In this document: piece after piece, positions 4,029 to 34,029 of the stretch
Layout of the letters: every line of letters begins with the position of its first letter
Position numbering within the stretch: position 1 is the first letter of the stretch
From: Silvanigrella paludirubra
Lineage (GTDB): Bacteria; Bdellovibrionota_B; Oligoflexia; Silvanigrellales; Silvanigrellaceae
DNA: 35,205 bases
Direction: 5' to 3'
NCBI RefSeq assembly: GCF_009208775.1
Contig: NZ_WFLM01000008.1
Location: forward strand, 1 to 35,205
Program-made: the position numbers and the translations under genes
The notes under the pieces: model-generated
What the model was told of the DNA's origin: nothing
What the model saw: the letters and a program-made list of their open reading frames with translations, nothing else
Databases searched by the model: none

Positions 4029-4100
4029 GAATTATTTAATTAATATTGATATTGTAAATATATTTTATTGTTTTAATAATAATATGAATTCAAAAAATAT

Positions 4101-4148
4101 AAATTTATAATATTATTATTAAATAAATTTATAATATTATTATTAAAT
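4101..4148. repeat. Two-copy 24-bp perfect tandem repeat
   Basis: Two identical 24-base units (4101-4124 and 4125-4148) begin AAATTTATAATATTATTA and contain only A and T. A partial third copy (AAATATATAA) follows. This probably arose by replication slippage. It could also form a bendable or easily melted stretch upstream of the pgi promoter. Confidence 0.8.
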
Positions 4149-4186
4149 AAATATATAAGAATTAGTAAATTAATCATTTTTTATGT

Positions 4187-17629: not shown

Positions 17630-18784
17630 TTGATAACAACCTATCATTACAGAATTAAAGATTCAGGAAAATCGGGAAGGGCTTTAAAAAAAATGTCCTC
17701 TTCTGTTAATTTTGTATGGAATTATTGCAAAAATACTCAAAAAGAAGCTTTAAAAAATAGAACAGTAAAAAAAATAATAGATCCTTTAAGTGGGAAAACA
17801 ATTTTTGTTCCTTATTTTTTCACAAAGTTTGAAATGAACTCTCTTGTTTCTGGAAGCTCCAAAGAACTTGGAATTCATTCTCAGACAATTCAGGCAATAT
17901 CAGAAGAATATACTACAAGAAGAAAACAATTTAAAAATATTCTTCGCTGGCGTGGAAAAAATTCTTTAGGTTGGATTCCATTTAAAGCAACAGCGATAAA
18001 AATAAATCAGGATAAAGTATCATACCATAAAAACACATTTCGATTTTGGAATACAAGAGAAATTCCAGATGATGCAATTATAAAATCTGGTTCTTTTGCG
18101 CAAGATAGCAGAGGAAGATGGTATTTAAATATCACTTTTGAAACTAAAACTAGTCAATACTCTAATGAAAATTTAATTGAAAATGGTGTTTTCATAGATT
18201 CAAATCATTTAGCAAAATGTTCTAATGGAATTAAATTTGATAGGCCTAAAATATCAATTAAGTATGTTAGAAAAATTAAAATTTCTAACAAAATAAAAAA
18301 GAATATTTTAATGAAAAAGTCAAAATTGAAACTAATAAAAAGAAAAGCTCCAAAAATTAAGCAAGAAAAAAATTTAAGAGCCAAATTAGAAAATATTAAG
18401 TTAGATCATTTTCATAAACAATCTACTAAAATAATCAATTTCTCTTCTGCTATTATAACGAATCAGATTACAGCAAAAAGAAAAAAAAGTTATAAAAATA
18501 ATCATTTTATATCATTTGGAGCTATTTCTAAACCTTTTCAAAACATGCTTTGCTACAAAGCCATAAGAGCTGGCAGAACATTTAAAGTAATTCCTGAAAA
18601 AGATCTTATTTGGGCGTTTTCAAAGTGTTGTTCATCACAACCACGGACCAATTTAAGGATAAGAGTGTGGAAATGCAGGGAATGTGGAAAAATAAATCAT
18701 TTTTCCACAAAGGCAGATAAAAATTTATTATCTGTTTACAAAAACCCACTCCGTATCGGGCATGATACGCCAAGAAGCATTTAA
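17630..18784 (+). CDS. TnpB homologue lacking all RuvC catalytic residues (TldR-like candidate)
   Basis: A 384-residue TnpB (IS200/IS605 OrfB) homologue with an intact frame from a TTG start (AAGGG about 9 bases upstream). The N-terminal wedge/REC region (KKMSSSVNFVWNYC, 20-33) and the segment SLGWIPFKA...FRFW...SGSFAQDSRGRWY (112-165) match the family well. Every catalytic position is changed. At RuvC-I the usual GIDLGLKDLA is GVFIDSNHLA, so the Asp becomes F188. At RuvC-II there is no Asp or Glu at all between residues 260 and 322. At RuvC-III the usual CGxxHDRDxNAA is CGKINHFSTKAD, so the Asp becomes S359. The zinc ribbon keeps C349/C352 but its first knuckle is CCSS instead of CxxC. No tnpA is present. 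It lies beside oppA. Either it is exapted as an RNA-guided DNA-binding protein (TldR-like) or it is an uninterrupted decaying transposon gene. Confidence 0.82.
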   Translation: MITTYHYRIKDSGKSGRALKKMSSSVNFVWNYCKNTQKEALKNRTVKKIIDPLSGKTIFVPYFFTKFEMNSLVSGSSKELGIHSQTIQAISEEYTTRRKQFKNILRWRGKNSLGWIPFKATAIKINQDKVSYHKNTFRFWNTREIPDDAIIKSGSFAQDSRGRWYLNITFETKTSQYSNENLIENGVFIDSNHLAKCSNGIKFDRPKISIKYVRKIKISNKIKKNILMKKSKLKLIKRKAPKIKQEKNLRAKLENIKLDHFHKQSTKIINFSSAIITNQITAKRKKSYKNNHFISFGAISKPFQNMLCYKAIRAGRTFKVIPEKDLIWAFSKCCSSQPRTNLRIRVWKCRECGKINHFSTKADKNLLSVYKNPLRIGHDTPRSI

Positions 18785-20503: not shown

Positions 20504-20852
20504 AGATCCTCCTTAGGTAAAATCATTCATCTGTAAACCTGGATAAAAATTATATCAAAAGGAGTAATTACTATCTAGTTCATTTAAATATTTTATGTAT
20601 ATTATTGTATCCTATTTTTGATAATTTTCTTATCAATAAATATAAAAATTAACAACAAACAATTTTTCTATTTTAATTTTAGCATGATCCTCGAAATTTA
20701 GGGTATGAAATTTAAGAATTCAAATTTATAGTTTAATATTTTTGTTGCAAAAGAAAATAGACAAATCATTGAATAGATATTAACATTGAATTCAGCCAGA
20801 CTCAGAGTTTTATCATAAATTACAATTAAAAATTGATGGATTAATAATAAAT
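20504..20852. other. 349-base divergent intergenic region between oppA copy 2 and the ABC-2 operon
   Basis: A/T-rich, and it must contain the promoters of both oppA copy 2 (minus) and the exporter operon (plus). The clearest structure is TTGATAA (20618-20624) and TTATCAA (20630-20636), a 7-bp inverted repeat with a 5-nt spacer about 115 bp upstream of the oppA ATG, a possible operator. I could not place convincing -35/-10 pairs on either strand. No small gene or RNA is recognised. Confidence 0.5.
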
Positions 20853-21623
20853 ATGATTGATTTTATTTGCATAAAAAATTTAGAAGTTGTATACCAAGTC
20901 AGAAAAATAACAAATCACACTAATTTTAAACAAAAATTAATTCATATTTTTAAATCAGAATATGAATACAGAACAATTTTAAATAATGTTAATTTAAATT
21001 TAAATAAGCCAGGAATTACTTCAATAGTTGGAAAAAATGGATCAGGTAAAACAACTCTAATAAAGTCAATAGTTGGAATTATTTCTGCAAAAAATGGAGT
21101 CATTTCTATTTTTGGAGAAAACATTTCAAAAAAACACTTTTTAAATAACATTGGAGTTATATTTAGTCAAAAAAGTTCATTATTTATGGAAAACTCGTTA
21201 ATTGAAAATTTACAAATGACTCTTTCTATATATAGAAAGAGTCATTCTATAAATAAAGAAATAAATGATTATATAAGTATCTTTGATTTAAATAAAATTA
21301 AAGATAAAGCTATAAAAACTTATTCTTTAGGCGAAAGAATGAAAGCTGAAATTGTAAATTTATTTTCATATAAACCTAAGCTTTTATTTTTAGATGAACC
21401 AACAATTGGATTAGATCTTCAATCTCAAAAATATGTAAGGGATATGCTAAAAAAATATATCAATGAAAATCAAGCTCATGTTCTTTTAACTTCTCATAAC
21501 TTAAAAGACATTCTAGAATTATCTGATGAAATATATTTATTAAATGATGGATTATTATCTAAAACCTCAATAATGAATTATAATAATGAAAATTTGGAAT
21601 ATTTAGAGAGAATTTTATGCTAA
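20853..21623 (+). CDS. ABC-2 type transporter ATP-binding protein
   Basis: A 256-residue cytoplasmic ABC ATPase. Walker A is GKNGSGKT (60-67), the Q-loop region is IFSQKSS (Q106), the signature is YSLGERMKAE (157-166, a divergent form of LSGGQ), Walker B is LLFLDEP (177-183), and a switch His is in LLTSHNLKD. The insertion before the first beta-strand pair (KLIHIFKSEYEYRTIL, 28-43) is typical of ATPases paired with PF06182/DUF990 permeases. The stop overlaps the first permease start (ATGCTAA), so the three genes are translationally coupled. The SD is weak (GATGGA, far from the ATG at 20853). A perfect 32-bp palindrome covers codons 121-132. It likely powers export of an unknown compound. Confidence 0.9.
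   Translation: MIDFICIKNLEVVYQVRKITNHTNFKQKLIHIFKSEYEYRTILNNVNLNLNKPGITSIVGKNGSGKTTLIKSIVGIISAKNGVISIFGENISKKHFLNNIGVIFSQKSSLFMENSLIENLQMTLSIYRKSHSINKEINDYISIFDLNKIKDKAIKTYSLGERMKAEIVNLFSYKPKLLFLDEPTIGLDLQSQKYVRDMLKKYINENQAHVLLTSHNLKDILELSDEIYLLNDGLLSKTSIMNYNNENLEYLERILC
21215..21246. repeat. 32-bp perfect palindrome inside the ABC ATPase gene
   Basis: The arm AATGACTCTTTCTATA (21215-21230) is followed immediately by its exact reverse complement (21231-21246). In RNA it gives a 14-bp stem with a UAUA loop. It encodes residues 121-132 of the ATPase, between the Q-loop and the signature motif, and the frame stays open. No T run follows on either strand, so it is not an ordinary terminator. Confidence 0.95.
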
Positions 21624-22393
21624 GTTACATCTTTTTTATAAAAAATTCTTTTATTAATTTTTATCGTAATAAATGGTCTTTTTTAGGTATAATTACATTC
21701 TTAGTAATTATGTATTCCATTGAAGGATTTTTTTGGTATGGATTTTATAATAACAGCATAAACAAATTATATTCTAAAAATAGCATTATATTATATATTA
21801 TGATTGCCTTAACCATGCACCAAATTGTTTCTTGTGTGGGTAAGCCCGATCAACTTTCCGAAGATATAGAAACAGGATCAATTGATTATTTTATTCTAAA
21901 ACCATTAAATTATATAAATATATTAGTTTCTATTCATATAGGTTATGTAATAGCTAGATTTTTAGCATTATCTCCAATCATCTTATTTATTTTATGTTTA
22001 AATTCAATTACTCATATATTCATAAAAGTAACTCTACTTTTTATATTTTCAGTATTATGCGGCATTTTAAATTGCGTTATAAATATATTTTTATCTTCAT
22101 TCACCTTTTTTTATAAGGATAGTTATGGTTTTGTCGCTTTAAAAGAAACATTATTTTGGATTTTATCAGGCTCATTAATTCCGCTCGATATTCTTCCTTC
22201 ATATATCCAGAATATAAATAAATATTTGCCTTTTGGATATATTATATTTTACCCTATTCAATATATTTTGAATAATAATGAAAACATATCATTCTTATTA
22301 TCTATGATACTTATTTGGATCCTATTTTTTCATTTTTTAATTAGCAAAATTTGGAGAATAGGTATAAAAAAATATCTTGCTTATGGTGGTTAA
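21617..22393 (+). CDS. ABC-2 family permease (PF06182/DUF990-like), subunit 1
   Basis: A 258-residue integral membrane protein with about six hydrophobic spans. Family markers are the cytoplasmic segment ETGSIDYFILKPLNYI (about 88-103) and the late motif LSGSLIPLDILPSYIQNI...LPFGYIIFYPIQ. Homologues form heterodimeric permeases with a second DUF990 protein and one ATPase, exporting poorly known substrates in ABC-2 systems. Its ATG lies inside the ATPase stop (7-base overlap), with GAGAG just upstream. The substrate is unknown. Confidence 0.85.
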   Translation: MLSYIFFIKNSFINFYRNKWSFLGIITFLVIMYSIEGFFWYGFYNNSINKLYSKNSIILYIMIALTMHQIVSCVGKPDQLSEDIETGSIDYFILKPLNYINILVSIHIGYVIARFLALSPIILFILCLNSITHIFIKVTLLFIFSVLCGILNCVINIFLSSFTFFYKDSYGFVALKETLFWILSGSLIPLDILPSYIQNINKYLPFGYIIFYPIQYILNNNENISFLLSMILIWILFFHFLISKIWRIGIKKYLAYGG

Positions 22394-22397
22394 GAAA

Positions 22398-23177
22398 ATG
22401 GGAAATATTTTTCATATATTTTTAAATTCATTAAAATTGAATATTTCATTTTTAATGAAAAGTAAAAGCAACTTCTATTTTATGTTTTTTTTGCAAATTT
22501 TTTATTATGTTGTTCAAGTTATATTTTGGTCAGGAATTTTTAATATAAGCAATTCCGATTTTATTAAAGAGCCTATTAAAATATACGGATTTTTAGTAAC
22601 TCTAGCATTCATTGATAATTTTTATCTTACTTTTTTTGGTTCTGGAAGTTTAAATATGCAAAATGAAATATTTAAACTTTCTTTAGATAATTATCTTATA
22701 AAGCCGATACATCCATTAATTTATTTTATTTTTTTCAAACCAAATTTAGGATATTTTCCAGGTTTTATTTTAAGTATCATATTTTTAATTTCATATTACT
22801 ATTACTTTAATATCAATTTATTTCAAATTTTTATTCATATTTTAAGTATGTTGACTGGGGTTTTTATATTAAATGCAATTTCATTTATTTATAGAATTTC
22901 ATGTTTTTGGACAAATTGTTTAGTGATGATCAAAAATAGCAATCCCAGTTTTAAAATTATGGTAAGACCTCTTGAATCTTTTGAAGGAAAATTAAGGTTA
23001 TTTTTATTATTTGTCTTTCCTGCACTATTTATAACTGGAGTTCCATCCTCTATTTTATACAATGATATTATGAAGTATTGGCTATTAATTGGATTCATAA
23101 TGAATATTTGGATTTGGATTTTGGTATATTTTTTATGGAAAAAAGGTGTAAAAAGGTATCTAATTATCTCTGTATAA
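22398..23177 (+). CDS. ABC-2 family permease (PF06182/DUF990-like), subunit 2
   Basis: A 259-residue membrane protein with about six spans. It has the paired-permease segment FKLSLDNYLIKPIHPLIYF near 92-110, equivalent to the IDYFILKPLN segment of subunit 1, but a more divergent C-terminal half (AGKTN-type loops are absent). The start is taken as the ATG at 22398, 4 bases after the previous stop, with GGTGG 8 bases upstream. In-frame starts at 22383 (ATG) and 22377 (TTG) lack an SD and would overlap subunit 1. It completes the exporter operon; no accessory or regulator gene follows, and it is convergent with the flavoprotein gene. Confidence 0.82.
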   Translation: MGNIFHIFLNSLKLNISFLMKSKSNFYFMFFLQIFYYVVQVIFWSGIFNISNSDFIKEPIKIYGFLVTLAFIDNFYLTFFGSGSLNMQNEIFKLSLDNYLIKPIHPLIYFIFFKPNLGYFPGFILSIIFLISYYYYFNINLFQIFIHILSMLTGVFILNAISFIYRISCFWTNCLVMIKNSNPSFKIMVRPLESFEGKLRLFLLFVFPALFITGVPSSILYNDIMKYWLLIGFIMNIWIWILVYFLWKKGVKRYLIISV

Positions 23178-23212
23178 ATAGATTATATTATGAAAAAAAG
23201 TTTGAAAATTAA

Positions 23213-34000: not shown

Positions 34001-34029
34001 ATACTAATTAATATTATATTAATTAGTAT
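34001..34029. promoter_or_regulatory. 29-bp palindrome, candidate operator of the binding-protein pair
   Basis: ATACTAATTAATAT (34001-34014) and its exact reverse complement (34016-34029) flank a single T. The 14-bp arms with a 1-nt centre are typical of a homodimeric repressor site rather than a terminator. It lies 33-61 bases upstream of the ATG of the minus-strand binding-protein gene, where bound protein would block RNA polymerase. Confidence 0.6.

Follow-up and report, generated by a model that had tools for sequence, protein, structure and literature searches.

Why does an ATPase gene of Silvanigrella paludirubra carry a long perfect palindrome inside its reading frame, and does this palindrome act in regulation or does it record a mutation? 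The question arises from the window analyzed here, a stretch of 35,205 nucleotides at the start of contig NZ_WFLM01000008.1 (GCF_009208775.1), for which an original prediction, made from the letters alone, had proposed ribosome slowing, control of distal operon expression, binding of a dimeric protein, or an inverted duplication as possible sources of the palindrome. Here we compare the gene with its relatives, the palindrome with other coding hairpins of the genus, and both with what chance would produce.

Results

The palindrome, AATGACTCTTTCTATATATAGAAAGAGTCATT, was confirmed exactly as first described, with two perfectly matching arms, 16 base pairs and a spacer of 0. The features of the gene are as follows.

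20853-21623, forward strand: ABC exporter ATPase of 256 aa, motifs intact, GC 21% (PF00005, E 1.3e-26)
21215-21246, forward strand: 32-bp palindrome with 16-base arms and no spacer, present as a single copy in the genome
21215-21230, forward strand: left arm, codons ATG ACT CTT TCT ATA (MTLSI), the putative ancestral template arm, judged from a gapless family alignment in which the I and the next Y are family-conserved
21228-21233, forward strand: self-complementary ATATAT core encoding the conserved I-Y, the putative fold-back point, judged from the sequence and family conservation
21234-21246, forward strand: right arm past the core, AGA AAG AGT CAT plus T (RKSH), the putative derived copy replacing about five codons, judged from a one-residue deletion relative to 24 of 24 relatives and a hydrophobic position lost here

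The Pfam match and the intact open reading frame bear out the earlier placement of the palindrome inside an ABC ATPase gene with its frame preserved. The Q-loop (SQK) lies on one side of it and the signature (SLGER) on the other, and its center coincides with the boundary between the codons ATA (21228-21230) and TAT (21231-21233). The predicted RNA fold (-18.1 kcal/mol, z -5.3) consists of a stem of 14 bp, a loop of 4 nt and a short outer helix, in agreement with the 14-bp mRNA hairpin that had been proposed between the Q-loop and signature codons.

The right arm is where the protein departs from its family. We compared it with 24 distinct ATPases of the same type, recognized in the retrieved loci by Walker A and signature motifs, with the spacing between Q-loop and signature left free. 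The distance from Q-loop to signature is 53 residues in all 24 relatives and 52 in the query. In an alignment to a profile made without the query protein, the left arm is gapless and the I-Y is kept, and a single gap falls directly after the R (IYR-KSHS), within the right arm; aligned from the right, the RKSH of the query stands opposite five residues of the relatives. The second residue past the conserved Y, which is I, L or V in 24 of 24 relatives, is lost. At the protein level, and against distant relatives, the right arm therefore holds both the missing residue and the site where a conserved hydrophobic residue was lost. This suggests that the altered tract coincides with the right arm, with a boundary that may shift by one codon since identity to the relatives is only about 24-38%. 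No close orthologue of the ATPase was found in the genus, the class, or the GTDB representative genomes or plasmids, and the nearest ATPases that turned up share 34-38% identity with it. As a separate observation, the homologous ATPase of two genomes, G004 and G007 (loci L005 and L006), has a different hairpin between Q-loop and signature, with 12-base arms and an 8-base loop, located away from the I-Y codons.

The palindrome shows in the amino acids and in the codons alike. All five codon pairs across the two arms are fully complementary (ATG/CAT, ACT/AGT, CTT/AAG, TCT/AGA and ATA/TAT), for which the probability is 4e-5 given the amino acids and the codon usage of the genome. The low value is driven by Lys AAG and Ser AGT in the right arm, with AAG accounting for 10% of Lys codons in the genome sample. 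Copying of a tract explains the pairing better than a series of single substitutions would.

Hairpins of this kind are in excess in the genus. Across four species, 1.37 Mb of coding sequence contained 27 coding hairpins with arms of at least 12 and a spacer of up to 8, vs. 6.7 after synonymous redraw and 4.7 after shuffling of codons, an over-representation of about four times; the open reading frames were called mechanically in sampled sequence, so that coding counts are approximate and palindrome counts sample-based. Between the two congeners G002 and G003 (400 kb compared, 86% identical), 3 of 26 coding hairpins are still fully paired, some differ by clustered changes that bring one arm into agreement with the other, and one shows a paired exchange on both sides. 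The fraction of pairs kept between these sister species is 0.79, compared with 0.69 predicted from the divergence of the flanks. Because of the paired exchange and the retention slightly above expectation, some coding hairpins may be under weak selection or undergo repeated correction of their arms. Two other hairpin genes considered as model cases were set aside, one being unique to this genome within the genus and the other having relatives too diverged for use (36-47%).

It had also been argued that long perfect palindromes are usually unstable in bacteria, which would make the retention of this one notable. The argument does not hold at 32 bp. Inviability from palindromes in E. coli concerns far longer ones, and the length seen here thus needs no special explanation for its retention; hairpins at least as long are found elsewhere in this genome and in the genus. 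Loss of a hairpin nuclease as a reason for persistence was rejected since the genome encodes SbcD. One longer palindrome of the genome is intergenic (L044, 1633-1677) and spans 45 bp with 22-base arms and a 1-base spacer. The window itself contains a second perfect palindrome of 24 bp, CAACATTTGTAGCTACAAATGTTG, at 709-732 within an ORF at 527-1078 on the reverse strand. This ORF is without an NCBIfam name and without a relative in seven other congeneric genomes. The window also contains an intergenic palindrome of 29 bp at 34001-34029 (14-base arms, 1-base spacer). Long A/T runs, together with imperfect inverted repeats whose arms are about 41 nt long, occur at 45-177 and 4045-4174.

A selected mRNA hairpin, whose stem would slow ribosomes or affect mRNA stability or distal operon expression, is the best-surviving alternative, though an improbable one. 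The fold is stable, the site maps to the helical region that separates the Q-loop from the signature of the ATPase, and the coding hairpins of sister species retain slightly more pairs than expected. The relatives nevertheless give no hint of a conserved pausing or folding signal, none having more than 7 pairs in DNA centered near the I-Y codons (spacers up to 8). The right arm also changes amino acids, an outcome that would tend to be disfavored if selection acted on the RNA only, and the forward strand is without a U-tract. The earlier suggestion of distal operon control likewise finds no support, as there is no U-tract and no intrinsic terminator on the operon strand. An intrinsic terminator or attenuator was rejected specifically on the absence of a U-tract after the stem on the forward strand, with only a weak match in antisense. 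An Rfam scan of the gene gave a sole match, which was sub-threshold and elsewhere in the gene rather than at the palindrome. In sum, regulatory roles of the palindrome received no positive support.

Base composition makes an accidental palindrome in AT-rich DNA worth weighing, because a GC content of 28% lifts the pairing probability to 0.30 (0.299) per position and the ATATAT core is self-complementary through its codons. Even so, a spacerless palindrome of 16 pairs is expected only about 1.5e-4 times per 35,205-nt window and, by arithmetic from the same pairing probability, about 0.017 times per 3.93-Mb genome. Four Markov simulations of 3 Mb, of different orders, never went beyond 13 pairs, and no hairpin with arms of 16 or more appeared in 12 synonymous redraws of the 1.37 Mb. 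The palindrome is more than chance, and the earlier statement that chance rarely gives 16 complementary pairs stands; we consider an accidental origin slightly less probable than a selected mRNA hairpin.

The palindrome also stands alone. No further copy of the palindrome exists in its own genome. With up to 3 mismatches, it is absent from the 53 other genomes of the class that were searched, and an exact 30-mer of it had no match in IMG/VR viral contigs. A perfect 32-bp dyad symmetry is what a site for a dimeric DNA-binding protein inside the gene could look like, but there is no second copy within 3 mismatches in any of these genomes, and half-site matches are weak and lie scattered over the window: 6 were found vs. 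a shuffle mean of 2.97, with 5 of 100 shuffles reaching 6, and these include both arms and an overlapping site, with none upstream of the operon. Protein binding, as once proposed, is therefore highly improbable. A dispersed or mobile palindromic element (REP, MITE or Rickettsia palindromic element) was rejected for want of dispersed copies, and insertion of a mobile element was rejected because the interval between Q-loop and signature is one codon shorter than in homologues, not longer.

The ATPase gene is the first of a three-gene operon, the remaining features of which are listed here.

21617-22393, forward strand: ABC-2 permease 1 (PF06182)
22377-23177, forward strand: ABC-2 permease 2 (PF06182)
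20504-23212, forward strand: approximate stretch with the operon insertion, by comparison with G002 and G003

With an ATPase (Walker A, Q-loop, signature and Walker B) and two PF06182 permeases, whose genes overlap, in one operon, the locus has the composition of an ABC-2 exporter. Exporter operons of matching gene order (L113-L115) were found on plasmids of a Clostridiaceae bacterium, Nicoliella and Streptobacillus. In G002 and G003, of the same genus, the oxidoreductase and peptide-binding protein genes are adjacent, about 150 bp apart; here the operon stands between the FAD-dependent oxidoreductase gene and the peptide-binding protein gene, on the opposite strand, and its GC content is 21-23% vs. 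about 30% in the neighbors. The bounds of the insertion are approximate, as the AT-rich intergenic DNA at the junctions yields chance matches only. Since the flanking genes are adjacent in G002 and G003 and the operon is lower in GC than its neighbors, the exporter operon would most simply be a gain in this lineage, and the gain was possibly horizontal. Near the peptide-binding protein gene, there is a TnpB-family gene at 17630-18784 (NF040570, just over the cut-off), preceded by a gene for a TrhO-like sulfurtransferase, not TnpA. Near the corresponding oxidoreductase locus of G005 (C6:652-8812) and G006 (C19:549905-556436), there are four or five tandem paralogues of the peptide-binding protein.

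Discussion

The palindrome is likely the scar of a single replication template-switch mutation of the quasipalindrome type. It is an adjacent inverted repeat with full complementarity over the tract, as such a mutation would leave. During replication, the nascent strand would have folded back at the self-complementary ATATAT of the conserved I-Y codons, the already copied left arm would have served as the template for extension, and the nascent strand would then have returned to its normal template. About five codons past the I-Y would in this way have been swapped for four (AGA AAG AGT CAT), with a net change of -3 bp and the frame kept. The replaced stretch is probably a tolerant linker between Q-loop and signature, and the change could have persisted because of this tolerance and because the ATPase motifs were unharmed. 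That there was one event, in this direction and of neutral effect, is what we infer from the comparison with the relatives. Among the options first put forward, the scar of an inverted duplication comes closest; the inverted copying is retained from it, now in the narrower form of a template-directed exchange of about five codons for four.

An assembly or sequencing artefact of the fold-back chimera kind is conceivable in a draft genome of 30 contigs but very improbable here, as such chimeras usually terminate with the flank copied in inverted orientation, whereas in this gene the frame is kept, roughly four codons take the place of five, and the protein is colinear with its family on both sides.

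The proposed template switch has several precedents. The quasipalindrome mechanism is documented in E. coli (PMC7202029), where, at the thyA hotspot and in lacZ reporters, an inverted repeat is likewise perfected by copying one arm from the other with a few bases removed or added; there the event was caught in the act, whereas here it is deduced from distant protein relatives. In yeast coding genes, template switching alters several adjacent codons (PMC8604942), and the homogenization of arms in coding sequence, with up to five neighboring amino-acid replacements in one gene, resembles our case; the yeast events separate strains and many of them involve short arms, whereas the arm here is 16 bases long and no strain pair is at hand. 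A template switch is able to create perfect stems in one event (PMC8794818). Inverted repeats are in excess in prokaryotic coding DNA, and this excess has been attributed to template switching (Ladoukakis and Eyre-Walker 2008, as summarized in PMC4060949). In that summary the excess in coding regions is explained as we would explain ours, but the repeats are short, at 6-9 bp, and the palindrome here belongs to the long tail. Perfect inverted repeats within translated genes are also known from the mitochondria of Nematomorpha (PMC6649704), but those are many, reach 284 bp and encode conserved regions in both arms, unlike the one short palindrome with one non-conserved arm found here.

Taken together, the palindrome is real and non-random, and it most likely marks where a known mutational process acted on an exporter gene that this lineage gained. 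A variant of the template-switch origin, in which the hairpin was made in this way and later recruited, so that folding or expression of the acquired exporter is now tuned by the shorter linker or by the mRNA stem, seems to us about as improbable as a chance palindrome. The locus is a good candidate, in a bacterium, for one copy-back event that changed four or five adjacent codons and left a protein one residue shorter with its motifs unbroken. It adds to the evidence that mutation is often the source of long coding hairpins in AT-rich genomes, for which a regulatory role should not be the default reading.
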